Shown here: positions 5,151 through 29,208 of the stretch, piece by piece
Layout: each line of letters opens with the position of its first letter
Numbering within the stretch: the first letter of the stretch is position 1
NCBI GenBank assembly: GCA_021776315.1
Contig: JAJFGD010000235.1
Coordinates: 1 to 34,329 of the forward strand
Source of the DNA: Hyphococcus sp.
Lineage (GTDB): Bacteria; Pseudomonadota; Alphaproteobacteria; Caulobacterales; Parvularculaceae
Direction of reading: 5' to 3'
DNA length: 34,329 nucleotides
Notes under the pieces: generated by a model
What the model was told of the DNA's origin: nothing
The model's database searches: none
Seen by the model: only the letters and a program-made list of their open reading frames with translations
Position numbers and translations under genes: made by a program

Positions 5151-5188
5151 AAACCCGGTTCAATAATCATTGAACCGGGTTTTTTCTT
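5151..5188 (+). terminator. Strong rho-independent terminator between convergent genes
   Basis: 14-bp perfect stem AAACCCGGTTCAAT / ATTGAACCGGGTTT, loop AATC, followed by T tract. Confidence 0.92.
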
Positions 5189-10102: not shown

Positions 10103-10552
10103 TTACTCTTCGAGTAGGGCAAAAAGCTCAGCAAACTTCGTTTTTGCTTTGCCTACATGGCGGGCACTTTTTGCGTCTTCAAGATTAGGCGTGTGATCTC
10201 CAACAATAACCAAACTCACCATACCCATGCCGTAATGGGGCATGCATTTGACACCATAAACACCCGCTTGTGTGGCGTCGAAGACGACATCTTGGTTCAT
10301 CTTTCCCTTAAACCCTGTCGCACCTTCTGGAACCATTCCTTTGATGGTTTCGGCATTGTGACTCGGATCCGTGGCGACAAAACGGACCGTATCACCGACT
10401 TTTGCTTTCACGAGCTGAGGTTCAAACACCATAATTGATCCGTCGGTGCCTTTGTTCAGCATCTTCACAACAATCTCTTCAGCTGACGCCATGGTTGGGA
10501 TGCAAAGTAAAAGAGTTGAGGCCAAAATACTTTTAATAGAAAAAATTCGCAT
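10103..10552 (-). CDS. Pseudoazurin (periplasmic blue copper protein)
   Basis: Signal peptide, VVKMLNKGTDGSIMVFEPQLVKAKVGDTVRFV..DPSHNAETIKGMVP and YGVKCMPHYGMGMVSLVIVGD (type I Cu ligands H, C, H, M). Confidence 0.93.
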   Translation of the reverse strand: MRIFSIKSILASTLLLCIPTMASAEEIVVKMLNKGTDGSIMVFEPQLVKAKVGDTVRFVATDPSHNAETIKGMVPEGATGFKGKMNQDVVFDATQAGVYGVKCMPHYGMGMVSLVIVGDHTPNLEDAKSARHVGKAKTKFAELFALLEE

Positions 10553-10608
10553 GTTCCTATTCCTTTAAAAATGAGCGGCAATTGTTTGGGTTCTTGACTT
10601 AGGGATTA

Positions 10609-10633
10609 AAAGATGTATTGTCAATACATCTTT
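10609..10633. promoter_or_regulatory. NsrR-like operator (perfect 12-1-12 palindrome)
   Basis: AAAGATGTATTG-T-CAATACATCTTT, perfect inverted repeat; resembles the NsrR consensus AAGATGYATTTnAAATRCATCTT; sits between pseudoazurin and the small-ORF/ccoS unit. Confidence 0.7.
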
Positions 10634-10906: not shown

Positions 10907-11014
10907 ATGGTTTCAAACAATCCAAAGCGCCATCAATTTGAATTTTCGTTTCCTCTTGAAGCAAGCGGAAAAAACCTTCAAATTAAATTGGTAGTCAAAA
11001 GTTTGCGTTCATGA
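10907..11014 (+). CDS. Candidate 35-aa ORF overlapping the ccoS start codon
   Basis: MVSNNPKRHQFEFSFPLEASGKNLQIKLVVKSLRS; stop TGA overlaps ccoS ATG (ATGA); weak RBS, so uncertain. Confidence 0.3.
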   Translation: MVSNNPKRHQFEFSFPLEASGKNLQIKLVVKSLRS

Positions 11015-11216: not shown

Positions 11217-11999
11217 TTATTCATCGCCAAATGTCGACGCATAGGCGCGCCAAGATGCATGCGCAATTACCGGATATGTTACGATCAGACCAACGAAGAA
11301 GGTGGCAAAGCCGAACCCGATAAAGAGGGTTACAAGCGCTCCCCATAAAAGCATGGCAGCTTTGTTTTTCCAGGCAGTGGCCATGCTTTTGCCCATAGCT
11401 GTAAACGCGTCTGTTTTTCGATCAAGGAGCATGGGCAGGGAAAAAACGCTGATAGCGAAAGCAAAGGAGGCGAATAATGCGCCAACAATGGTGCCGGTTC
11501 CAAGCATGAACCAGCCGGTAGGGGTCGTAAACAAAATTGGAATGATCTGATCCCCACCTGGGAACGGGCGCAAGCCGAAGAACACCGCATAAATAAGGAC
11601 GGCCGAACGCATCCAAAGAAGCGCCAGAAGAGATAAGAGCACACCAACGAAAACAACTTGGCCGCCGGATGCGGGCTTAATGAAAACCATCTGCGCAAAT
11701 GTCGTTGATTTGCCTTCTTGTAGATTTTTTGATTTCAAATAGAGGCCCGTCGCAAACAATGGCCCTGCGATGACAAAAGCGGATAGCGCTGGAAGTAAGA
11801 AATAGTCTAGCCGCCAAAAATATAAACCAGCGACAATAACCGCCGAAAGCATAAACACAATAAAACCAGCGAATAGACTACTGCCGGGTTTGGCGGTAAA
11901 ATCTTGCCAACCGAGGGAAATCCATTTCAAGGGTTCTGACGCATTAATCCTTGGCGCTTCAAATTTGTTGGGCAGGGTTTCAGTTGCTTCCAAAGTCAT
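11217..11999 (-). CDS. DUF2189 domain integral membrane protein (copy 1)
   Basis: PLKWISLGWQDFTAKPGSSLFAGFIVFML, VYPVIAHASWRAYASTFGDE C-terminus; likely start MTLEATETLPNKF at 11999; paralogous to 29369-30136. Confidence 0.8.
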   Translation of the reverse strand: MTLEATETLPNKFEAPRINASEPLKWISLGWQDFTAKPGSSLFAGFIVFMLSAVIVAGLYFWRLDYFLLPALSAFVIAGPLFATGLYLKSKNLQEGKSTTFAQMVFIKPASGGQVVFVGVLLSLLALLWMRSAVLIYAVFFGLRPFPGGDQIIPILFTTPTGWFMLGTGTIVGALFASFAFAISVFSLPMLLDRKTDAFTAMGKSMATAWKNKAAMLLWGALVTLFIGFGFATFFVGLIVTYPVIAHASWRAYASTFGDE

Positions 12000-12027
12000 A
12001 ACGTCTAGTCCTTGATATCGTCGATGT

Positions 12028-12216
12028 TCAGCACGACGGCTTGGCAGCCTTAGAGCGATAGGCTTCATCAGTATCGTTCAACGCCACACAAGTTGGCTTT
12101 AATGAAAATGCGGCTTTTAGCAGTTGTGCGTTACCCATAGCCACAGCAATGAGAAAGAGTAAGGCACCGGCCCACAACACCCCAAATCGTTTAAACTGTT
12201 GTGCGAACCGCGCCAT
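12028..12216 (-). CDS. Small single-TM hypothetical protein downstream of ccoP
   Basis: MARFAQQFKRFGVLWAGALLFLIAVAMGNAQLLKAAFSLKPTCVALNDTDEAYRSKAAKPSC; starts 3 nt after the ccoP stop. Confidence 0.6.
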   Translation of the reverse strand: MARFAQQFKRFGVLWAGALLFLIAVAMGNAQLLKAAFSLKPTCVALNDTDEAYRSKAAKPSC

Positions 12217-12218
12217 GA

Positions 12219-13094
12219 TCAATCTTCACTCACTGTTTCGCTTAGCTGGGATACATACAGCGTTAAAAGCTTTAGGTCAGTGTCTGAAATGCGCCCATCC
12301 CAATGGGGCATATGTCCAGCGCGTCCATAATAGATTGTTTGGTATATTGACGGTTTATCGCCGCCATAGAGCCATACCGCATCTGTGAGGTTTGGTGCGC
12401 CGAGAAGCTGTTCACCTGTACCATCAATACCGTGACAGCTTGAGCAGTTTGTTTCGAACAATGCGGCGGCGGCGGTATGTTGTTGTTCGTTCTGCGTTGG
12501 CTCTGAAAAGGATGTGACATAATCCGTCAACATTGAAATTTCGTCGCGCGACAATATTTGCATTTCGCCATACGCCATCATTTGGGCGAAGCGCGTTTCA
12601 TCATGGCGGGAATTGATGCCACCTCGAACTGTTTGATAGATCTCGTCGACAGTGCCACCCCATAGCCAATCAGTATCGTTGAGCGTTGGGTATCCAGCAT
12701 TTCCAATGCCGCCAGATGCATGGCAAACGGAACAGTTATCTTCAAAAAGGACTTTTCCTGCGTCTTTTGCGACCTGCAATATCTGTTCGTTTCCGGAGAG
12801 TTCGGCAAGGTCATTTGACGCAACGATTGTCTCCCACGTACTGCGATCAACTTTACCAGCCGCAAGTGCTTCGTTGACTTGGTCCCGTTGGTCAATGCCA
12901 AGAATGCCCTTGGTGTAAGTACTGATCCCTGGCCATGCCGGAAGCAGTATCCATAGGACCACACAAATGGAGAACCCAATACCTAAAAACCAATAGACGG
13001 GTTTCGGTACCGGCGTGTTCAGTTCTTTGATACCGTCCCATTCGTGATCGGTCAGTTCTCTACCCGTATAGGGATCGATTTCGCGCTTGGTCAT
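12219..13094 (-). CDS. ccoP: cbb3-type cytochrome c oxidase subunit CcoP (diheme), operon 1
   Basis: DPYTGRELTDHEWDGIKELNTPVPKPVYW and two CxxCH motifs (CSVCH, CSSCH). Confidence 0.96.
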   Translation of the reverse strand: MTKREIDPYTGRELTDHEWDGIKELNTPVPKPVYWFLGIGFSICVVLWILLPAWPGISTYTKGILGIDQRDQVNEALAAGKVDRSTWETIVASNDLAELSGNEQILQVAKDAGKVLFEDNCSVCHASGGIGNAGYPTLNDTDWLWGGTVDEIYQTVRGGINSRHDETRFAQMMAYGEMQILSRDEISMLTDYVTSFSEPTQNEQQHTAAAALFETNCSSCHGIDGTGEQLLGAPNLTDAVWLYGGDKPSIYQTIYYGRAGHMPHWDGRISDTDLKLLTLYVSQLSETVSED

Positions 13095-13249
13095 TTCTCG
13101 TCCTGATCGTGAAAAATGCTTTTGGCAGCTCGGTCAAATTTTTCCTTGTTGGCCGGCCATAAGGCATAGGCTACGGCAATGCCGAAAAGGAAGATCAGAT
13201 AAAATAGACCCCAAGATTTTGAGAGCATGACAAAAAAATCATGTGTCAT
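13091..13249 (-). CDS. ccoQ: cbb3-type cytochrome c oxidase subunit CcoQ, operon 1
   Basis: MTHDFFVMLSKSWGLFYLIFLFGIAVAYALWPANKEKFDRAAKSIFHDQDEK between ccoO and ccoP; not in ORF track. Confidence 0.9.
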   Translation of the reverse strand: MTHDFFVMLSKSWGLFYLIFLFGIAVAYALWPANKEKFDRAAKSIFHDQDEK

Positions 13250-14004
13250 GAGTTATCCTCCTCGCTTGGCGTATCACTAGATGGCTCCACGCCCGGTGCA
13301 TCAGGTAAATCTGTTAGCTGTCCCAATATTTGAAGATAAGCGACTAACGCATCCATTTCGGTTAGCTTGCGCATATCCCCGTCAAAGTTTCGAACATTGG
13401 TCTCGGCACCATAACGATCATAAACGCCATCAGATAAATCGCCATCTGGATCGGCTTGGCCGATCGTATCTGCCGAGGCATTTTCAATCATTTCGTCTGT
13501 ATACGGGACCCCAACAGTGCGGAGTGCTCTCAAGTGACTTGCCATTTTGTCTGGCTGAACCTGAATGCGATCAAGAAATGCATAGTTGGGCATTTTCGAC
13601 GCCGGCACTAAAGAGCGCGGCGCGCGCAAATGCTGTGCTTGCCATTCATCCGAGTATTTTCCGCCAACGCGCGCAAGGTCGGGGCCGGTGCGCTTTGATC
13701 CCCAAAGCATCGGGTGATCATATTTCGACTCGACCGCAAGGGAGTAATGCCCGTAGCGCTCAACATCGTCACGTAAGGTTCTAATCATTTGGGAATGGCA
13801 GACGTAGCAGCCTTCACGAATATAGATGTTTCGGCCGGCTGTTTCGAGTGGTGTATAAAGCCGCATATCCGGATCGGCCTCGACCGTTTCATCAATGGTG
13901 AAAAGGGGCGCAATTTCAACAAAGCCGCCAATCGATGCAACCACGATGACACCGAGGACAAACGCGATGGAATTTCGTTCTAGTTTTTTGTGGACACCAA
14001 ACAT
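13246..14004 (-). CDS. ccoO: cbb3-type cytochrome c oxidase subunit CcoO (monoheme), operon 1
   Basis: [64 protein letters not shown]. Confidence 0.97.
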   Translation of the reverse strand: MFGVHKKLERNSIAFVLGVIVVASIGGFVEIAPLFTIDETVEADPDMRLYTPLETAGRNIYIREGCYVCHSQMIRTLRDDVERYGHYSLAVESKYDHPMLWGSKRTGPDLARVGGKYSDEWQAQHLRAPRSLVPASKMPNYAFLDRIQVQPDKMASHLRALRTVGVPYTDEMIENASADTIGQADPDGDLSDGVYDRYGAETNVRNFDGDMRKLTEMDALVAYLQILGQLTDLPDAPGVEPSSDTPSEEDNS

Positions 14005-14005
14005 G

Positions 14006-15640
14006 TTAAGCGGCTCCCTCTAAAACGCCATCCGGCGAGGTGCTGACGCGACCCACGATTTTGCTCGAACTGATCGTCTTCCAAACATTATAGGCGCAGA
14101 CAAGACCGCCCATTAAAAACAGAAGGCCGCCGACAGCGCGTGCAATATAGTAAGGATGCATGGCCTCTAGGGATTCAATAAAGGAATAGGTTAGCGTGCC
14201 ATTTTCGCTATATGTCCGCCACATGAGGCCTTGAATAATGCCCGAATTCCACATCGCGAAAACGTAAATGACGGTGCCTGCGAGGGCGAGCCAGAAATGA
14301 ACCTCCACCAATGCTGGTGAGTACATGCGTTCGCGTTTCCACAATTGCGGCACGACGGAATAGATCGCCCCAAATGTTATAAAGGCTACCCAACCAAGCG
14401 CCCCTGAATGTACATGACCAATCGTCCAATCCGTATAGTGGGACAATGAGTTCACTGGACGGATTGCGAGGAAAGAGCCTTCGAATGTTGAAAGGCCATA
14501 AAATACTGCCGCGACCATCATGAAACGCAAAGTGGCGTTATCTCTTACTTTGTCCCACGCGCCATTCAGGGTCAGCAAGGCATTCCCCGCCGAGGCCCAG
14601 GATGGTACTAGGAGTACGATTGAGAACGTCATGCCAAGCGTCTGCACCCAATGAGGTAACGCTGTATAATGTAGGTGGTGGGAACCAGCCCACATATACA
14701 TGAAAGTAATGCCCCAAAAACTGATAATCGACATCCGGTAAGAGAAAATGGGTCGGCCAGCCGCCTTGGGGAGATAGTAATACATCATCCCCAGGAAGCC
14801 TGCGGTGAGAAAGAACGCTACCGCATTATGCCCATACCACCATTGGGTCATGGCATCTTGAACGCCTGAAAATGCTGAATAGCTTTTGGTGTCGCCGAAT
14901 GAAACGGGTACAGCGAGATTGTTCACAATGTGGAGCAAGGCGACCACAACAATAAATGCAATATAATACCAGTTGGCCACATAGATGTGTTTTTCTTCGC
15001 GCCGCGCGAGGGTGTTCAGAAAAACAAAGAAATAGCCAACCCAGACAACTGTCAGCAAAATGTCCGCATACCATTCTGGTTCTGCATATTCCTTTGATTG
15101 GGTAACACCCAAGAAATAACCGGTTACGGCCAAAAGGCAGAATAGGTTGTAGCCTAGCAAAATAAAGATCGGCCCATAACGCCCGGGCAAAGAGGTCCGG
15201 CAAGTGCGTTGAACGACGTGAAACGATGTGGCCATCAAAGCATTGCCACCAAACCCAAATATGACGGCAGTGGTATGGGCGGGACGTATCCGGCCAAAAG
15301 ATGACCAAGCCGCATCAAATGTCAGATCTGGATAAGCGAGGAGCCAAGCAACCCAATCTCCGATAAAAAATCCAAAGATTGCCCACGCTATTGAAAGCAA
15401 GATCCCGAGCTTGATAGGCGTGTCGTAATAGACATCACGTGAATAGGGTTGAGCTTGGGGTTTGTTATAGTCTTTTGCAAAACCAAAAAACGCCAGGACA
15501 CCAAATGCAAAGAACATCGCGCCATGTGTCGTAAAGGCAGCAGATTGGCTGCTCACCATCATGACCACACCAATCAGGATGGCGACAAAACTGGTCCCAA
15601 TGGCGGCATCTCGTTCTGCGGGAGAAAAATCAAAGGTCAC
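14006..15640 (-). CDS. ccoN: cbb3-type cytochrome c oxidase catalytic subunit CcoN, operon 1
   Basis: [73 protein letters not shown]. Confidence 0.97.
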   Translation of the reverse strand: MTFDFSPAERDAAIGTSFVAILIGVVMMVSSQSAAFTTHGAMFFAFGVLAFFGFAKDYNKPQAQPYSRDVYYDTPIKLGILLSIAWAIFGFFIGDWVAWLLAYPDLTFDAAWSSFGRIRPAHTTAVIFGFGGNALMATSFHVVQRTCRTSLPGRYGPIFILLGYNLFCLLAVTGYFLGVTQSKEYAEPEWYADILLTVVWVGYFFVFLNTLARREEKHIYVANWYYIAFIVVVALLHIVNNLAVPVSFGDTKSYSAFSGVQDAMTQWWYGHNAVAFFLTAGFLGMMYYYLPKAAGRPIFSYRMSIISFWGITFMYMWAGSHHLHYTALPHWVQTLGMTFSIVLLVPSWASAGNALLTLNGAWDKVRDNATLRFMMVAAVFYGLSTFEGSFLAIRPVNSLSHYTDWTIGHVHSGALGWVAFITFGAIYSVVPQLWKRERMYSPALVEVHFWLALAGTVIYVFAMWNSGIIQGLMWRTYSENGTLTYSFIESLEAMHPYYIARAVGGLLFLMGGLVCAYNVWKTISSSKIVGRVSTSPDGVLEGAA

Positions 15641-16130
15641 AATTTCTTCCCTCTGTCTCGTCGGTGTCTTTTTTGGTTTTTCATCAGTTTCAAATAGGGC
15701 CAGAACCGATCAGTAGGGATATATACCGATGCGCATTATTCTTGAGGGGCTGTGGCCAGGTTCCTTTCTTGTGTTTCTATTTTCCGGTTAATTTGCAGTC
15801 ACGAATTTTTATCATTTTTTGCCAAATAATTGGTCAGTTACTATTTCATCAAAGTACTGAACATATAAAAACCTTCCGGTCCCATAAAAAATTTCACTTT
15901 TCAGATCGTCAATTTCGACGAAACAAAATCCTATGCGGCAAAGTCACTTGAACAATCAGTTTATGAAGTATTTCATATCGTTTGGTTGCATCGCCAAGAT
16001 AATGATCTTCACATTTGCGCGATAAATTGTTGCGCAAGAATTCAACTGGCTAATAGACAACGCCATTTACTAAAAGTCGCATGAGTTCAGCTTTTTAAAA
16101 AAAAGCTTGACCGTTTTTGTGTAGCTGATT

Positions 16131-16155
16131 AAAGAGGTATTGTAAATACATCTTT
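16131..16155. promoter_or_regulatory. NsrR-like operator upstream of the sNOR cluster
   Basis: AAAGAGGTATTG-T-AAATACATCTTT, 23/25 identical to the element at 10609-10633; overlaps a possible promoter (TTGACC 16107 - 17 nt - TAAAGA). Confidence 0.7.
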
Positions 16156-16169
16156 AAAGGTAAAATGCT

Positions 16170-16718
16170 GTGCAACAATTCGCGCTTTTGACAAGCTTAA
16201 TTCTCATATTCGGCGTTATTGCTGGGTTTTTGTATGTGGCAATCAATACTTCCCAGGCTGGAGACAAGGCCGAAATCCAACAATCGATAAATACTCTAAG
16301 AACAAAAACCCTTTGGCTTATGATCGGTGTAGGCGTGCCGCTTACCTTGGCGTTGGCTTATCGCTGGCCACATGCGCCTGAAGGGTTTCAAGGTGAGCCG
16401 ATTACGGTCTCAGCTGAAAGCGGGCAATGGTATTGGAATCTCAGCCAATTTGAACTGCCAGTTGGGACGCCCATCGTTTTCGAATTGACAACAGTCGATG
16501 TGAACCATGGCTTTGGTGTTTATGACGAAGAGTTTGAACTGGTCACTCAAGCCCAGGCCATGCCAGGTTACACCAACAAACTCAATTATGTATTTAAAAA
16601 ACCCGGCCTTTATACGGTTGCTTGCTTAGAATATTGCGGGGTCGCGCATCACGCGATGCTTGCTGAAATCGACGTGGTCGATCCTGTTACTTATGCCAAC
16701 AATCAATCAAACGAATAA
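16170..16718 (+). CDS. norS: Heme-copper oxidase subunit II with CuA site; probable sNOR subunit NorS
   Basis: ESGQWYWNLSQFELPVGTPIVFELTTVDVNHGFGVYD and complete CuA motif CLEYCGVAHHAM; TTG/GTG start at 16170. Confidence 0.82.
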   Translation: MQQFALLTSLILIFGVIAGFLYVAINTSQAGDKAEIQQSINTLRTKTLWLMIGVGVPLTLALAYRWPHAPEGFQGEPITVSAESGQWYWNLSQFELPVGTPIVFELTTVDVNHGFGVYDEEFELVTQAQAMPGYTNKLNYVFKKPGLYTVACLEYCGVAHHAMLAEIDVVDPVTYANNQSNE

Positions 16719-16730
16719 GGAATCCGCACG

Positions 16731-18194
16731 ATGTCGGAGAGCGACGTAATAATTGCGAAAGATCAAACAATGCCAACGGGCCAAGTCTCACTCATTGCAC
16801 GTTCTGCAATATTAATAGCGAGCCTCGTATTTGTGCTCATGATGGCGGTTGGGCTGCTTTTGCGTTCTGTACAAGGTGGTTTTGTGACCATCGCACCAGA
16901 TATGTTTTACAAACTCATGACACTACATGGGGTTGGTATGGTCGGCGCCGCTGGATTGGCTGGTTTTGCCGTCATGTGGTATTTTCTCAATAAATATGTT
17001 GCGCTTTCCAAAGCAATGTTTCTTGCATTTTTAGGGACGTTTCTTATTGGCGTCGTGGTCATTATTGGTTCGATAATGATTGGAGGCTTTGGCGGGGCTT
17101 GGACATTTCTTTATCCGCTGCCGGTTCAATCTGGCGGCGTTTGGGAAGCACAAGCGGCAATATTGTTTCTCGTCGGATTGCTTCTTATCGGCGTTGCTTT
17201 TCTGCTTGGCTATCTCGATGTGGGACGCGCGCTGATTAAAGAATATGGTAGCCTTGCAAAGTCGATCGGTTGGCCGGCTTTGTTTGGAAATGCAGAGGCA
17301 CCACCCCCAACCATTGTTGCTTCAACGGCGGTTACCATTGTGAATGTGATTGGTACAGTTGCCGGCGCTGCGATCATCTTGATGAGTATTTTTAATGCAA
17401 TCGCGCCAACATTTAGTGTTGATGCATTGCTTGCGAAAAACCTCACTTATTTCTTTGGGCATGTCTTTATCAATGCATCGATCTATATGACGGTGATGGC
17501 GGTTTATGAAATTGTGCCTCTCTATACTGGGCGTGCGTGGAAAAGCTCCAAGATCTTTCTCATCGGGTGGACAATCACTCTGTTTATGGTGATGGCGGTG
17601 TATCCCCATCATTTGTTTCAAGATTTAGCGATGCCCCCATGGCTGCTCGTCGCTGGCCAGATCGGTTCCTATGTTAGTGGAATTCCAGTAATCGCGATTA
17701 CAACATTGGCGCTGTTTGGATATTTGTTCAAAAGCGGCGCGCGCTGGGATTTGTCCCTATCCTTGTTGGTCTTGGGTGTTTTTGGCTGGGCTGGCGGTGT
17801 CATTCCCGCGATTATTGATGGGATTATTTCGGTCAACAAGGTTATGCACAATACTATGTGGGTGCCTGGCCATTTCCATTTCTATTTGTTGATTGGCATG
17901 GTTTCGATGGCTTTTGGGTTTATGGTTTGGATCGGCCGCCAAGGGACTGCGTCGGCATTTCGTGGCGTCGAGAAATTGAGCTTTGCTGCTTATGTCATCG
18001 GCGGATTGGGCTTGGTGGCAATGTTCCTTATTTCCGGTGCGAATAGCGTGCCGCGTCGCTGGGCTGAACATTTGGTTCAATGGCAAAGCTATAGTCAGCT
18101 TGCTACCGTCTTTGCTGTCATCACCGTTTTAGGGGCAATCGCCATGCTGTTTTATGGGATCGCCGGTGCCGCAAAGACCGCGACAAAGACTTGA
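16731..18194 (+). CDS. norY: Heme-copper oxidase superfamily subunit I; probable sNOR subunit NorY
   Basis: MTLHGVGMVGAAG, GHVFINASIY (Asn where oxidases carry the cross-linked Tyr), YPHHLFQD, HNTMWVPGHFHFYLL, SVPRRWAEH; order norS-norY-senC-orf1. Confidence 0.82.
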   Translation: MSESDVIIAKDQTMPTGQVSLIARSAILIASLVFVLMMAVGLLLRSVQGGFVTIAPDMFYKLMTLHGVGMVGAAGLAGFAVMWYFLNKYVALSKAMFLAFLGTFLIGVVVIIGSIMIGGFGGAWTFLYPLPVQSGGVWEAQAAILFLVGLLLIGVAFLLGYLDVGRALIKEYGSLAKSIGWPALFGNAEAPPPTIVASTAVTIVNVIGTVAGAAIILMSIFNAIAPTFSVDALLAKNLTYFFGHVFINASIYMTVMAVYEIVPLYTGRAWKSSKIFLIGWTITLFMVMAVYPHHLFQDLAMPPWLLVAGQIGSYVSGIPVIAITTLALFGYLFKSGARWDLSLSLLVLGVFGWAGGVIPAIIDGIISVNKVMHNTMWVPGHFHFYLLIGMVSMAFGFMVWIGRQGTASAFRGVEKLSFAAYVIGGLGLVAMFLISGANSVPRRWAEHLVQWQSYSQLATVFAVITVLGAIAMLFYGIAGAAKTATKT

Positions 18195-18204
18195 TGTAAA
18201 AGCC

Positions 18205-18816
18205 ATGATCAAAACACTTCTTGCCACGATTGGAATTTTGATGGTGGGTGTGAGCACAATTCACGCCAGCACTGATAGGTTTAGTGCGTTTACGGCAGAA
18301 GGTGCTCGACGTTATTCAGCCATCAATAATCCCAATTCTGTTTTGCCCATCCAGTTAACAACGCATACAGGGGAGGCGACTACATATTTTGGGAATAGTG
18401 ATCAAATCCTGGTGGTTGAGTTCATATTCACCCATTGCCCAGAGGTTTGTCAGACTTTGGGCCGATCGTTTTTCCAACTTCAAGAAAAAGTCCGCGCGAT
18501 TGGTATCGACGATCGGGTTCAGTTTGTCAGTGTTTCTTTCGATCCAGAATATGATCATGTCCCTGAGCTTGCGGCATTTGCTGAGCGTCACCAGGCGAGG
18601 TCTGAAATGTGGCGTGTTGCACGACCGCAAACAGATGATGACCTACAGTATCTCTTAAAGACGTTTGGTGTTGTTGTGATTGACGATCCGTTTTTGCGCT
18701 ATGTGCACAATGCTGGTCTACATTTTGTTTCACCGGCCGGTAATTTGGTGGCGATCTTAGACGCTGACGATGTTGAGGGTGGTATTGAATTGATTAAGGC
18801 CGCCCCATGGCTTTAG
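18205..18816 (+). CDS. senC: SCO1/SenC copper chaperone
   Basis: FTHCPEVCQTLGRSFFQLQ (CxxxC), VQFVSVSFDPEYD, YVHNAGLHFVSPAGNLV; start set at MIKTLLATIG (18205). Confidence 0.9.
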   Translation: MIKTLLATIGILMVGVSTIHASTDRFSAFTAEGARRYSAINNPNSVLPIQLTTHTGEATTYFGNSDQILVVEFIFTHCPEVCQTLGRSFFQLQEKVRAIGIDDRVQFVSVSFDPEYDHVPELAAFAERHQARSEMWRVARPQTDDDLQYLLKTFGVVVIDDPFLRYVHNAGLHFVSPAGNLVAILDADDVEGGIELIKAAPWL

Positions 18817-19451
18817 CGCGTATGGGGCATAACGCGTTTTTGATCGGCGGTTTTGCGCTGTGGTTATTTTTGGTTCTTCCGGGGACGACCGACATTTTAG
18901 AGGCAAACCTACCAAGCCATTTTCTGGTTCAATTACCACTATTGGCTTTGGTTGGTTGGCTTTTGGGATGCGATCCGCGCATTGGACGTGTTTTTCGAAC
19001 CGCTGACTGGAACCGTTATGGCATCACGGGGTTGGTGTTAGCGCTTTTGGCATTGCTTTTTTGGATGATCCCACGATCCCTTGATGCAAGCCTCATTGAT
19101 GGTTGCATGGCCGTCGCAAAATATTTCTCATTTCCACTTTTGGTCGGGTTGCCATTACGTTTAAGCTGGCCGGCAGCACCATTTTTTGTGAAAGGGTTTC
19201 TTCAAGCAAACCTTCTATCGATGATCGTGTTTCTCGCTTGGTTATATCACGCGGCTCCAGTGCAGCTTTGCAATAGCTATCTGCGGGAAGACCAACTCTT
19301 ACTCTCTCAATTTCTGATCAAGATATTTTTTGTCCTAAGCGTCATTTTTGCATTCAAACCAATATTCGGTTTTTCACCAACTAGAATTTTATCCCGAGTT
19401 TCTGAGCAATTCGGACAACATTTAGTAAGGTATCAAGATGGACATTCCTAA
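18807..19451 (+). CDS. Multi-TM membrane protein in the orf1 position of a norSY-senC-orf1 cluster
   Basis: Overlaps senC; repeated hydrophobic helices; position-based assignment. Confidence 0.7.
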   Translation: MALARMGHNAFLIGGFALWLFLVLPGTTDILEANLPSHFLVQLPLLALVGWLLGCDPRIGRVFRTADWNRYGITGLVLALLALLFWMIPRSLDASLIDGCMAVAKYFSFPLLVGLPLRLSWPAAPFFVKGFLQANLLSMIVFLAWLYHAAPVQLCNSYLREDQLLLSQFLIKIFFVLSVIFAFKPIFGFSPTRILSRVSEQFGQHLVRYQDGHS

Positions 19452-20244
19452 TACGAACCAACATTTCTCTGCCATCGCCAAGAAGAAAATTACGCATCTC
19501 ACATCTAACCCTATTGGGTTTTTTATCGCAGCCATGATGGCCGGCGCTTATGTTGGCGTCGGGATTATTCTTATTTTGAGTGTAGGTGAACATGCCGACC
19601 CCTCCGTCAGGACATTGGTGATGGGGGCAAGCTTTGGTATTGCTTTGACGCTTGTTATGTTTGCGGGCTCAGAGCTTTTTACTGGTTACACCATGTATAT
19701 GACCCAAGGTGTGTTGGGAAAAACCGTCACTCCGAGCCAAGCCGTGATGTCTTGGACCGTTGTTTGGGTCGGCAACCTTGTTGGGTGTCTCTTATTGGCC
19801 AGTATTGCGGTCGTCGGTGACATCAACATTGTTGGGGCTCATGGTGAACTTTTATTCAAACTGGCTGAAAAAAAAATGCATCTCGAGCCGCATCAAATGG
19901 TGGCGCGAGCAATGCTTTGTAATTGGTTGGTCTGTCTATCGATATGGACATCCGCACGAACCGACAATGATGTCGCAAAGATCATGCTTATCTTTTGGTG
20001 CCTGTTTGCGTTCATTGCGAGTGGGTTTGAGCATTCGGTTGCCAATATGACTGTATTCTCCTTGGCACTATTGGCCGATCATGGTGAGGCTATCAATATG
20101 GCTGGAGCGGCCAAAAGTCTTTTCTGGGTAACCCTGGGTAATACGCTCAGCGGGGTTTTCTTCCTGGCGGGCGGGTATTGGGCTGTTGGAAAAAAAACCG
20201 CCAGACACACCGGGAAGGCAGCCGTTATCGAACAAAGCGCCTAA
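19438..20244 (+). CDS. nirC: Formate/nitrite transporter (FNT) family, NirC-like
   Basis: NPIGFFIAAMMAGAYVGVGIIL, AGSELFTGYTMYMTQGVLGKTV, ARAMLCNWLVCLSIWTSART, SGFEHSVANM. Confidence 0.9.
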   Translation: MDIPNTNQHFSAIAKKKITHLTSNPIGFFIAAMMAGAYVGVGIILILSVGEHADPSVRTLVMGASFGIALTLVMFAGSELFTGYTMYMTQGVLGKTVTPSQAVMSWTVVWVGNLVGCLLLASIAVVGDINIVGAHGELLFKLAEKKMHLEPHQMVARAMLCNWLVCLSIWTSARTDNDVAKIMLIFWCLFAFIASGFEHSVANMTVFSLALLADHGEAINMAGAAKSLFWVTLGNTLSGVFFLAGGYWAVGKKTARHTGKAAVIEQSA

Positions 20245-23703: not shown

Positions 23704-23717
23704 TTGATTTAGGTCAA
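23704..23717. promoter_or_regulatory. FNR box upstream of ccoN operon 2
   Basis: TTGAT-TTAG-GTCAA inside the larger dyad GTCTTGATTTAGGTCAAGAC (23701-23720), about 60 bp before the ccoN start. Confidence 0.85.
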
Positions 23718-23774: not shown

Positions 23775-25433
23775 ATGTCTGGAACACAAATGCAATCGCA
23801 AGCTAGCACTGACTTGGGTGGTGACCGCATGTTTGTTTGGGGCATGCTCATCATTCTCGCATTCTGGTCACTCTTCACGGTCGCGCGTTCTGCGGATCCT
23901 TTGATGGGGGCTCATGCGGCGCTTTTCCTCGGTGCATCGGTCATCGGGATATTTGCGATGATTGCTCATCGAACCTCTGGTTATGTGGCTGAAAGCGACT
24001 CATACGAAATGGGCGTCGTCAAAGCCGGTGTATTTGCTTCCGTATTCTGGGGGATCGCCGGATTTTTAGTCGGTGTGATTATCGCCGGACAATTGGCCTT
24101 TCCAAATCTTCTCTATTTTCCAGAATTGCCTTGGACGAGTTTTGGGCGGTTGAGACCTCTACACACCTCTGCAGTGATTTTTGCGTTTGGTGGCAATGTG
24201 TTGATCGCGACCTCATTTTACGTGGTACAGCGAACAAGCCGTGCGCGCTTATGGGGCGGTCTGACGCCATGGTTCGTATTCTGGGGCTATAATCTCTTTA
24301 TAGTTATCGCTGCGACTGGATATTTGATGGGGATCACTCAGTCGAAAGAATATGCGGAACCAGAATGGTATGCAGATCTTTGGCTAACAATTGTATGGGT
24401 TGCATATCTTTTCGTCTTTTTAGGAACACTTTTGAAGCGAAAAGAACCGCATATCTATGTCGCAAACTGGTTCTATTTAGCCTTTATCGTCACGATTGCG
24501 ATGTTGCACATTGTAAACAATCTCGCTGTGCCGGTGTCGTTGACCAGTTCGAAAAGTTACAGTCTCTTTGCCGGTGTGCAAGATGCGTTGACGCAATGGT
24601 GGTATGGTCACAATGCTGTTGGGTTCTTCCTGACTGCGGGCTTTCTTGCGATCATGTACTATTTTATTCCCAAGAAGGCGGAACGTCCGGTATATTCATA
24701 CCGTCTTTCCATTGTGCATTTCTGGTCACTAATCTTCATCTATATCTGGGCCGGTCCGCACCACCTTCATTATACGGCGCTGCCTGAATGGGCGCAGACG
24801 TTAGGTATGACTTTCTCAATCATGCTTTGGATGCCGTCATGGGGCGGTATGATTAATGGCTTGATGACCCTTTCGGGCGCGTGGGATAAGCTGCGCACAG
24901 ACCCCGTCTTGCGGATGATGGTGGTCTCCGTTGCGTTCTACGGCATGTCGACCTTTGAAGGGCCGCTCATGTCAATTCGGGCTGTGAATTCGCTATCTCA
25001 CTATACGGACTGGACAATCGGTCACGTTCATTCAGGTGCACTCGGGTGGGTCGGTTATATTTCCTTTGGTGCGCTCTATTGCTTAGTGCCTTGGCTTTGG
25101 AAACGAAAAGAACTTTATTCCCGACAACTTGTTGAGTGGCATTTCTGGATCTCTACGCTCGGCATTTTGCTCTATATTACATCCATGTGGGTGTCGGGAA
25201 TTATGCAAGGCATGATGTGGCGTGCTTATAACGAATTCGGTTTCCTCGAATACTCATTTGTTGAAACTGTCGAAGCCATGAACCCTTATTATATAATTCG
25301 GATGCTTGGCGGCGTTTTGTTTCTGATCGGTGCCTTTATCATGGCCTATAATCTATGGCGGACAGCACGGGGCGATGTCCGAGAAAAAGAATATGTACGC
25401 GACGCTAATATCGCTGCAATTCCGGCGGAGTAA
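23775..25433 (+). CDS. ccoN: cbb3-type cytochrome c oxidase catalytic subunit CcoN, operon 2
   Basis: [71 protein letters not shown]. Confidence 0.97.
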
Positions 25434-25442
25434 GGAAACACT

Positions 25443-26171
25443 ATGCTCGACCGTCATGAAATTCTTGAAAAGCGTGGGCTTCTTCTCAGCGTCGCAATTT
25501 TGGTTGTTGTTGCTATTGGTGGCATCGTGGAAATCGCACCGCTTTTTTATCTCGAGTCAACAATCGAGAAAGTAAAGGGCGTACGGCCATATTCACCGCT
25601 AGAGCTTGCAGGCAGAAATATCTACCTTCGCGAAGGCTGCTATACTTGCCATTCCCAAATGGTACGACCGCTTCGCGACGAGGTTGAACGCTACGGACAT
25701 TATTCCCTCGCTGCTGAGAGTATGTATGACCACCCTTTCCAATGGGGATCGAAGCGTACTGGCCCAGATCTCGCGCGCGTAGGCGGGAAATATTCAGATG
25801 CCTGGCATCAACAGCACCTTGTTGATCCAAGAAGTGTCGTACCCGAATCTGTCATGCCGCCATATGCTATGTTGAATGAGCGTGCGCTTGACTATTCGCA
25901 AGTCGAGGCCTGGCTAAAAGCCAACCGGGTCGTCGGCGTGCCTTATACAGATGAGATGATAGAGAACGCGAAAAATGACTTGGAAGCCCAGGTCGACCCA
26001 TTCTCAGAAATCTATGACGATTTTATTGCGCGATACCCGAAAGCCCAGATCCGGGAATTTGATGGCGATCCGCGAAAAATCACAGAGATGGATGCAATGA
26101 TTGCCTATCTCCAGGTGCTGGGCACCATGGTCGATTTCTCGACTTATGAAGCTGAAGAAAATTACCGGTGA
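25443..26171 (+). CDS. ccoO: cbb3-type cytochrome c oxidase subunit CcoO, operon 2
   Basis: [64 protein letters not shown]. Confidence 0.97.
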
Positions 26172-26177
26172 TCCGAG

Positions 26178-26342
26178 ATGTATGAAACGCTTTCAAGTTT
26201 TGCTCAGACATGGGGTTTATTGCTGTTCATTCTCGCCTTCGGGTTAGTGCTTATTTATGCGCTTAGTCCCCGAAATCAGGGCAAGTTCGATAAAGCAAAG
26301 CAAATACCACTAAACGACGAGGATGATGCGCATGTCGGATAA
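26178..26342 (+). CDS. ccoQ: cbb3-type cytochrome c oxidase subunit CcoQ, operon 2
   Basis: MYETLSSFAQTWGLLLFILAFGLVLIYALSPRNQGKFDKAKQIPLNDEDDAHVG; not in ORF track. Confidence 0.9.
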   Translation: MYETLSSFAQTWGLLLFILAFGLVLIYALSPRNQGKFDKAKQIPLNDEDDAHVG

Positions 26343-27201
26343 GGAAATTGATCAGCCGACCGGCGTAGAAACTACCGGCCATGAGTGGGACGGAATCAAA
26401 GAACTCAACAACCCATTGCCGCGATGGTGGTTGATCATTCTCTGGATCTCTATCGTGTGGTCGGTTGTGTATTGGATTTTAATGCCTTCATGGCCCGGAA
26501 TTTCAGGTCACTTCGCGGGTATACGGGGACATTCAGACCGAGAAAATGTTGCTATTGCTATCTCTGCATTGGAGACAGAGCGCAGTGCGCAGATGCAACA
26601 GTTGAAGAGCGTCTCGTCCATTAATGATATCGAAAGTGATCCCCAGCTTTTGCAATTTGTGTTGGAGGCCGGAGAATCAATGTTTGGCGACAATTGCGCG
26701 ACATGTCACGGTGCAGGCGGGCAGGGCTTTAAAGGATATCCAGCACTTGTTGACGACGCTTGGTTGTGGGGCGGTACGCTTGATAACATTAGCAAGACCT
26801 TGCACCACGGTATTCGATCGACACATCCTGAATCCCGACTGAGTGTAATGCAGGCTTATGGTGAACTCGGCGTGTTTAATGGGGACCAGATCAATGATAT
26901 GGTCGAGTATGTGGTCAATTTGTCAGGGCGCGATGCAAACGCGGATGCGGTGGCCCGTGCGACACCACTATACCAACAACAATGCGTCAGTTGTCACGGT
27001 GTCGACGGGACCGGAGATCAGACTCAAGGTGCACCTAATTTGACTGATGCAATCTGGTTATATGGCGGTGAGCGTAGCGAGATTTATGAGACGATTAAAA
27101 ATGGTCGCGAAGGCGTCATGCCGCATTGGACTGATCGCTTGACTGATGAACAAATAACCGCGCTTGCTGTTTATGTTCATTCACTTGGTGGTGGCGAGTA
27201 A
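26332..27201 (+). CDS. ccoP: cbb3-type cytochrome c oxidase subunit CcoP (diheme), operon 2
   Basis: EIDQPTGVETTGHEWDGIKELNNPLPRWW and CATCH, CVSCH heme motifs; start MSDKEID at 26332. Confidence 0.96.
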   Translation: MSDKEIDQPTGVETTGHEWDGIKELNNPLPRWWLIILWISIVWSVVYWILMPSWPGISGHFAGIRGHSDRENVAIAISALETERSAQMQQLKSVSSINDIESDPQLLQFVLEAGESMFGDNCATCHGAGGQGFKGYPALVDDAWLWGGTLDNISKTLHHGIRSTHPESRLSVMQAYGELGVFNGDQINDMVEYVVNLSGRDANADAVARATPLYQQQCVSCHGVDGTGDQTQGAPNLTDAIWLYGGERSEIYETIKNGREGVMPHWTDRLTDEQITALAVYVHSLGGGE

Positions 27202-27217
27202 GGGGTAATGTTCGTTT

Positions 27218-28723
27218 GTGACCGAACTCAAAATCAACCGGGTGCAAGGCGCTAACGGCAATCAGGCAGCCGAAGGCGTTGCTGTTCTTGACGCGGCGGC
27301 GGTCAATAGCGCAGCGGCGCGCGAGCTCTATAAAAAACGCGAACCAATTTACCCAAAACTCGTTCATGGGAAATTTCGTGCCCTGAAATGGTTTCTGCTT
27401 TTCGCAACATTGGGCGTTTACTATCTATTGCCGTGGGTCCGGTGGCCGCGCGGTATCGGCGAACCTGACCAAGCCGTACTAATCGATTTTGCTGGCGGGC
27501 GGTTTTATTTTTTCTTTATCGAGATTTGGCCCAGTGAACTCTACTACGTTACTGGCCTGCTCATCCTCGGGGCGGTCGGCTTATTTCTCGCGACCGCGTT
27601 ATTCGGCCGTGTTTGGTGTGGTTATGCATGTCCACAAACGGTGTGGACCGATCTTTATATTGCCGTGGAGCGATTGATCGAAGGGGATCGCAATAAGCGT
27701 ATGCGGCTTGCGCAAGCGCCTTGGACTTTTGAGAAAATCCGCAAAAAATCAATGAAACATACCATCTGGCTTCTAATTGCTGCGGCGACTGGCGGCGCTT
27801 GGGTGTTTTATTTTCATGATGCGCCGACAATCTTCCCTAAACTTTTTACCGGTGAGGCACCAGGTTCAGCTTATCTGTTTATGGGTCTGCTAACATTTAT
27901 GACCTACGCCCTCGCCGGGACCATGCGAGAGCAGGTTTGCACCTATATGTGCCCATGGCCACGTATTCAGGCTGCGCTGACTGATGACGAAACACTTCAG
28001 GTCACATACAAAAAAGATCGCGGTGAAAAGCGCGGTCCCCACAAAAAGGGGGAAACGTGGAGCGGCCGCGGCGATTGTATTGATTGCAAAGCCTGCGTAG
28101 CTGCCTGTCCTATGGGGATTGATATTCGTGATGGTGCCCAACTTGAATGTATCAATTGTGCACTTTGTATTGATGCCTGCGACGACATAATGGGGCGTAT
28201 TGATCGACCAAAAGGTCTGATCGCTTATGATACTGACGAAAACATGTTCCGCCGTTCTCAAAGCAAGCCGCCAAAAATACGGTTGTTGCGATCAAGAACA
28301 ATTTTTTATGGCACCGTGTTTGTGATTGTTTCGGCCATCATGTTCATGGCTTTAACCTCACGGGCCACACTGGACGTGAATGTGTTGCGTGATCGAACAC
28401 CCCCATTTGTTCAATTGTCGGATGGGTCAGTTCGTAACGCTTACACGGTCAAAATTGTGAACAAAGCAAATGTGGAACGAGAGTTTTTTGTAAAACTCAC
28501 TGGCATTGATACAATTACGATGGGGGCAATTGGCGAAGAAGTGACAGATAACCAAATGCGGGTTAGCGTTCTCGGCGATGATGTGCGATCCATTCGCGTT
28601 TTTGCCACCTTACCGCCAGGCATAGATCGGCCTGCCTCCATGCCGCTGTCGTTTATTATTCGCGAGAGCGTAAGCGATGAAGAGAAAACAAATCCAACCG
28701 TATTCCTGACGGAGAGACGCTAA
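27218..28723 (+). CDS. ccoG: Cytochrome c oxidase accessory protein CcoG (FixG/RdxA, ferredoxin-like)
   Basis: FGRVWCGYACPQTVWTDLYIAVERLIEGDRNKRM, CIDCKACVAACPMGIDIRDGAQLECINCALCIDACD; GTG start. Confidence 0.96.
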   Translation: MTELKINRVQGANGNQAAEGVAVLDAAAVNSAAARELYKKREPIYPKLVHGKFRALKWFLLFATLGVYYLLPWVRWPRGIGEPDQAVLIDFAGGRFYFFFIEIWPSELYYVTGLLILGAVGLFLATALFGRVWCGYACPQTVWTDLYIAVERLIEGDRNKRMRLAQAPWTFEKIRKKSMKHTIWLLIAAATGGAWVFYFHDAPTIFPKLFTGEAPGSAYLFMGLLTFMTYALAGTMREQVCTYMCPWPRIQAALTDDETLQVTYKKDRGEKRGPHKKGETWSGRGDCIDCKACVAACPMGIDIRDGAQLECINCALCIDACDDIMGRIDRPKGLIAYDTDENMFRRSQSKPPKIRLLRSRTIFYGTVFVIVSAIMFMALTSRATLDVNVLRDRTPPFVQLSDGSVRNAYTVKIVNKANVEREFFVKLTGIDTITMGAIGEEVTDNQMRVSVLGDDVRSIRVFATLPPGIDRPASMPLSFIIRESVSDEEKTNPTVFLTERR

Positions 28724-29208
28724 TGGGAACGGAATTTCGTTTAACAGGTAAGCATGTATTGGCGATGCTGATCGGGTTTTTTCTCGTCATTTTGATCGCC
28801 AACATCTTTTTGATAAATTTTGCCGTGAAGTCCTTCCCGGGGGAGAAGGAAGAAAAATCCTACCTTCAGGGGTTGAATTATAATCAGCGACTGGCTGCCC
28901 GAACAGAGCAGGCCGCTTTAGGCTGGACGACAACAATCGACGAAGCATTATTAGTCGATGACAATATCGAGTTTAAAATTGTCATCAAGGATGCTAACGC
29001 ATTGCCGATTCCAAATCTCGACATTGTCGGTGTGTTTTCCCGTCCGGCCAACGATGCGGATGATCATTCATTCGTTTTTTCAGGTATTGGCAATGGAACT
29101 TATATTGCAACGGTACCGGGATCTCCAGGGCTTTGGGAGTTAGAGGGAACAGCCGTCGATGATCGCGGCAATAGTTTCGTCTTTACGAGCCGAATGGTTT
29201 TGCAATGA
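28723..29208 (+). CDS. ccoH: FixH/CcoH family protein
   Basis: N-terminal TM, VLAMLIGFFLVILIANIFLINFAVKSFPG, YNQRLAARTEQAALGW; between ccoG and ccoS. Confidence 0.9.
   Translation: MGTEFRLTGKHVLAMLIGFFLVILIANIFLINFAVKSFPGEKEEKSYLQGLNYNQRLAARTEQAALGWTTTIDEALLVDDNIEFKIVIKDANALPIPNLDIVGVFSRPANDADDHSFVFSGIGNGTYIATVPGSPGLWELEGTAVDDRGNSFVFTSRMVLQ

Follow-up and report, generated by a model that had tools for sequence, protein, structure and literature searches.

A candidate NsrR operator upstream of pseudoazurin and its second copy before an sNOR operon in Hyphococcus sp.

Organisation of the locus

The window, by which we mean the whole 34,329-nucleotide stretch of contig JAJFGD010000235.1 (assembly GCA_021776315.1) analysed here, derives from Hyphococcus sp., an alphaproteobacterium of the family Parvularculaceae, and the features that bear on its proposed regulation are collected in Table 1. 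A perfect palindrome (site 1) lies next to a divergent gene on the minus strand for pseudoazurin, a copper protein that carries electrons, and beyond a cbb3 oxidase operon a second copy of the palindrome (site 2) precedes an operon for an sNOR enzyme.

Table 1. Coordinates of the operator candidates, their neighbouring genes and the candidate regulator
Feature	Position	Strand	Remarks
Pseudoazurin, presumed target	10103..10552	-	TIGR02375 over cut-off; divergent from site 1
Site 1, candidate NsrR operator	10609..10633	.	Perfect 12-1-12 palindrome
cbb3 oxidase ccoN-ccoO-ccoP, then DUF2189-like gene	11217..15640	-	
Site 2, candidate NsrR operator	16131..16155	.	2 mismatches to site 1
sNOR subunit II (NorS-like)	16170..16718	+	COX2 domain, CuA motif CLEYCGVAHHAM
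sNOR subunit I (NorY-like)	16731..18194	+	COX1 domain, active-site Tyr replaced by Asn
SCO1/SenC copper-assembly protein	18154..18816	+	
Conserved sNOR-linked protein	18807..19451	+	In place of orf1 of norSY-senC-orf1
NirC-like nitrite/formate transporter	19438..20244	+	
NsrR-like Rrf2 regulator	C91:5364-5801		43% identity to E. coli NsrR, full length

Subunit I of the operon carries H-V-F-I-N aligned to H-P-I-V-Y of the Thermus ba3 oxidase, and the substitution of the active-site Tyr by Asn is a mark of sNOR (PMC8756737 Table A4). In keeping with this class, subunit II is of the cupredoxin type and senC and orf1 are linked to it. Subunit I is 35% identical to its homologue in Nitrosomonas eutropha, and the order COX2-COX1-SenC-orf is that of norSY-senC-orf1 in ammonia oxidisers (PMC4940428), which shares the active-site Asn; the present operon differs in having nirC after it and an NsrR-like site before it, no such site being found in the Nitrosomonas locus (L060). 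It encodes the only NOR-type enzyme found in the genome, where neither cNOR nor qNOR was found and where the other COX1-family proteins are two cbb3 oxidases and one protein on C239, presumably of aa3 type. There is dispute, extending to Nitrosomonas itself, over whether sNOR acts as an NO reductase or as an oxygen reductase of high affinity (PMC6967387). The enzyme is rare among kin (2 of the 148 genomes in the search of relatives, the window's own genome counted), a scarcity that fits horizontal acquisition.

Site 1 and its agreement with the NsrR motif

The palindrome AAAGATGTATTGTCAATACATCTTT consists of two arms (10609-10620 and 10622-10633) that are 100% complementary and separated by 1 nt, exactly as the original prediction had described it. 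The window has no other perfect 12-1-12 dyad, while 150 dinucleotide shuffles of the window yielded one such dyad in total, corresponding to about 0.007 expected. A perfect palindrome by itself is unremarkable for a 3.3-Mb genome; what is remarkable is its agreement with an independently published motif. Site 1 matches exactly the NsrR motif gATGyAT-N5-ATrCATc that was derived from other bacteria (Rodionov et al. 2005, PMC1274295), and it is the sole exact match in the genome. The predicted resemblance to an NsrR operator is thus well supported by the motif, by an nsrR-like gene in the same genome and by like sites at the nsrR-like genes and sNOR operons of relatives.

Site 2 and other motif matches in the genome

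Scanning of the 3.3-Mb draft genome (275 contigs) with the 25-mer, as had been proposed, retrieved two copies at up to three mismatches, both of them in the window, and the reversed 25-mer gave no match over the whole genome at the same threshold. Site 2 lies 5.5 kb from site 1 and 14 bp ahead of the start codon of sNOR subunit II, with one mismatch to the published motif. The original prediction had recognised site 1 but overlooked site 2 and the sNOR operon starting at 16170, which is the best-supported target.

At up to two mismatches the motif has 31 matches in the genome against 8 for its reversed control. Seven matches have one mismatch: site 2, one in the divergent gap of nsrR, four within long ORFs (L134, L135, L137 and L140) and one before an unrelated 128-aa ORF (L136), and the last five were rejected as operators on account of those positions. 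Another match, on C92, was dismissed as no NO-related neighbour could be recognised. Site 2 was likewise discarded as a regulator of the first cbb3 operon, being about 490 bp from ccoN and adjoining sNOR subunit II. A 9-of-11 dyad, TTGCGCGATAAATTGTTGCGCAA (16015-16037), also occurs between ccoN and the sNOR operon.

The NsrR-like regulator

Three Rrf2 proteins are encoded in the genome, one of them IscR-like and adjoining a probable cysteine desulfurase gene, another with a weak HypR-like match. The third is the NsrR-like protein of Table 1, whose best solved relative is S. coelicolor NsrR and which, in an Rrf2 alignment from which row L015 (wrong frame) was left out, retains three cluster cysteines and Asp8, the residues that ligate the cluster of NsrR (PMC5411485, PMC10510648). 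The search for an nsrR gene of the Rrf2 family that the original prediction called for was therefore successful, and the absence of any Rrf2/NsrR-like regulator, which it had named as grounds against itself, does not apply. In common with the E. coli and S. coelicolor proteins it has full-length homology, the three Cys ligands and Asp8; it differs in missing the NCBIfam NsrR cut-off and in its gene partners, a globin gene (PF01152) behind it and, divergent from it, a 159-aa ORF and a TehB-like gene, which we take to be of DUF1971 type.

The divergent gap of the nsrR-like gene contains a third, related site, AAGATGTATATCATATCCATCTT. In genus and family relatives, pattern matches likewise adjoin nsrR orthologues and globin genes, and the same arrangement recurs with clearer sites, such as AAGATGTATTTCATATGCATCTT beside nsrR in G021 and TAGATGTATTGTAAATACATCTT ahead of a globin gene in G039.

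Linkage of sNOR and NsrR across proteobacteria

Footprints of NsrR-like sites (at most 5 mismatches) were sought in a set of 25 named sNOR loci. The 150 bp that lead up to subunit II held 26 sites, spread over 16 loci, whereas the other 99% of the sequence held 8, and the reversed pattern gave none in the same interval of the 25 loci; the other 9 loci had no site at this threshold. The corresponding binomial probability of 3e-47 exaggerates the significance, many of the Leisingera and Ruegeria loci being closely related. The site-carrying loci fall into five lineage groups, namely the Roseobacter group, a Hyphomicrobiales MAG, Pseudoalteromonas, Thioalkalivibrio and Piscinibacter. An earlier comparison of the sNOR upstream regions with shuffles by dyad alone had little power, since any 200 bp will by chance contain dyads with 8-9 of 11 pairs, and was replaced by this motif test.

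Genes resembling nsrR are also found within 16 of the 25 sNOR loci. In the Roseobacter group, sNOR and the nsrR-like gene are arranged divergently, the motif has shifted in the direction of AATAGGTATT-N3-AATACCTATT, and the companion of these sNOR loci is a cbb3 cluster. Conservation of the site before orthologous targets was accordingly seen for sNOR (16/25 loci) and for the nsrR gaps, but not for pseudoazurin (0/12).

Two further arrangements were observed among these loci. In Pseudoalteromonas, sNOR subunit II is preceded by a tandem pair of NsrR-like sites with a spacing of 25 bp (L020:8263-8310). In Ruegeria, a further NsrR-like palindrome, AATAGGTATTGACAATACCTATT (L013:2847-2869), stands ahead of a globin-DUF2189-DUF1971-ccoNOP cluster, which suggests that the cbb3 oxidase of Ruegeria is also under NsrR control.

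Pseudoazurin and the plus-strand side of site 1

Upstream of pseudoazurin, site 1 begins at a distance of 56 bp from the start codon, and it is from this position that we infer NsrR control of pseudoazurin. The gene is thus a likely target, as originally predicted, but support comes from this genome alone, since none of 12 pseudoazurin loci from relatives has an NsrR-like site. In a genome of the same order (G093), pseudoazurin adjoins nirK and has an nsrR-like gene and a regulator of FNR type in its vicinity, a neighbourhood that makes a link of pseudoazurin to nitrogen oxides plausible. NirK was set aside as its partner here, as no nirK scored over the cut-off in the draft genome. In Paracoccus, pseudoazurin donates electrons to cNOR and cd1 nitrite reductase (PMC6872814); here it could plausibly serve the CuA centre of sNOR subunit II.

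On the opposite side, the proposed membership of a small-ORF/ccoS unit in the regulon is not supported. The small ORF is not conserved, with no convincing relative among 118 related genomes, and ccoS starts at 11011, 377 bp past the operator; NsrR control of both was rejected on the lack of conservation of the ORF. The promoter elements that had been proposed for both strands do exist, TTGACA at 10624-10619 of the minus strand and TTGACT-N16-TATTGT at 10594-10621 of the plus strand, but promoter-like matches around site 1 do not exceed chance (7 against 9.6 expected), and the minus-strand TTGACA is followed by no good -10 element (TAAGTC at 17 nt, 2/6).

Alternative readings

The Rrf2 protein may sense iron or Fe-S status rather than NO, the sites then belonging to a RirA-type regulator, and the family models lean slightly this way, for the protein scores 143 bits with the NCBIfam RirA model (NF008886, cut-off 193) and 136 bits with the NsrR model (NF008240, cut-off 182), both below cut-off. 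Its sNOR-linked relatives fall below the NsrR cut-off too, and some are equally ambiguous between the two models, RirA being slightly ahead in two. However, RirA has a conserved Asn where NsrR has the cluster ligand Asp8 (PMC10510648), and the protein has Asp at this position. Its gene partners also argue for NsrR: a globin here, with sNOR and NirC in other bacteria. The IRO box is TGA-N9-TCA. The site fits the NsrR motif and matches that box at only 4 of 6 positions, and we regard the RirA reading as improbable.

Somewhat less improbable, though still unlikely, is that NsrR works through site 2 as its operator and that site 1 serves only a plus-strand transcript or is a non-functional relic, leaving pseudoazurin outside the regulon. 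The site-free pseudoazurin genes of the relatives and the want of a strong minus-strand promoter speak for it; against it, of the two sites the better one is site 1, which has retained perfect symmetry, it lies close to the pseudoazurin start codon, and the plus-strand ORF is unconserved. The palindrome as a terminator, an FNR/NnrR-type site or a product of chance is the least credible of all and very improbable, in spite of its symmetry and central TTG-CAA. It lies ahead of the start codon of pseudoazurin, with no gene end there, and its arms are AT-rich; TTG and CAA are 1 nt apart, unlike the FNR site TTGATnnnnATCAA and the NnrR site TTTGcgnnnncgCAAa (PMC1274295); and chance is opposed by the two copies and by sites at orthologous places.

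Proposed mechanism

The reading as an NsrR operator is well supported computationally because of the motif match, the NsrR-like regulator and the sNOR-NsrR linkage in other bacteria, and we consider it highly probable from these sequences that the palindrome is the operator of the NsrR-like repressor, which would block the pseudoazurin and sNOR promoters until NO appears. Given the two operator copies and the NsrR-like gene, the pseudoazurin and sNOR genes are probably induced together by NO. Without NO, the Fe-S NsrR dimer would occupy sites 1 and 2 and exclude RNA polymerase from both promoters. Attack of NO on the Fe-S cluster would then cause NsrR to release the DNA, whereupon sNOR, the copper-assembly protein SenC, the NirC-type transporter and pseudoazurin would be made, and pseudoazurin may plausibly supply electrons to the CuA centre of subunit II. 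Binding, NO response and repression are here modelled on characterised NsrR proteins; control of pseudoazurin by site 1, its donation to sNOR and the reduction of NO by sNOR in this organism are put forward more cautiously.

Relation to known systems and significance

Operators of NsrR in gamma- and betaproteobacteria precede hmp, hcp-hcr, dnrN/ytfE, nnrS, norB and nirK, and almost no NsrR was reported in alphaproteobacteria (Rodionov et al. 2005, PMC1274295). The present sites share the motif of those operators, exactly in site 1 and with one mismatch in site 2, as well as the 23-bp dyad, and differ in their alphaproteobacterial host and in their targets, sNOR and probably pseudoazurin. As far as seen, the kind of operator is already known and the targets are new; no paper that connects NsrR with either sNOR or pseudoazurin in these bacteria was found in a literature search that left subscription literature mostly uncovered, and priority is not established.

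The link between sNOR and NsrR is the useful part of this analysis, as it bears on sNOR function: that NsrR-like sites and nsrR-like genes recur at sNOR in alpha-, beta- and gammaproteobacteria is evidence, from the side of regulation, that the enzyme takes part in NO metabolism. It also points to Ruegeria, Leisingera and Pseudoalteromonas as tractable sNOR hosts and suggests pseudoazurin as a candidate electron donor. As a possibility rather than an expectation, NsrR-sNOR may be a widespread, largely undescribed proteobacterial regulon in which NsrR has here captured the pseudoazurin that feeds the CuA centre of sNOR, giving a dedicated NO-induced pseudoazurin-sNOR NO reductase system.

Other features of the window

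A second cbb3 cluster (23775-29205) comprises ccoNOP with FixG- and FixH-like genes. An exact FNR-type site, TTGATTTAGGTCAA (23704-23717), lies 57 bp ahead of it, which is not the case for the first cbb3 operon. The perfect inverted repeat AAACCCGGTTCAATAATCATTGAACCGGGTTT (5151-5182) separates two genes that converge on it and resembles a terminator used by both.
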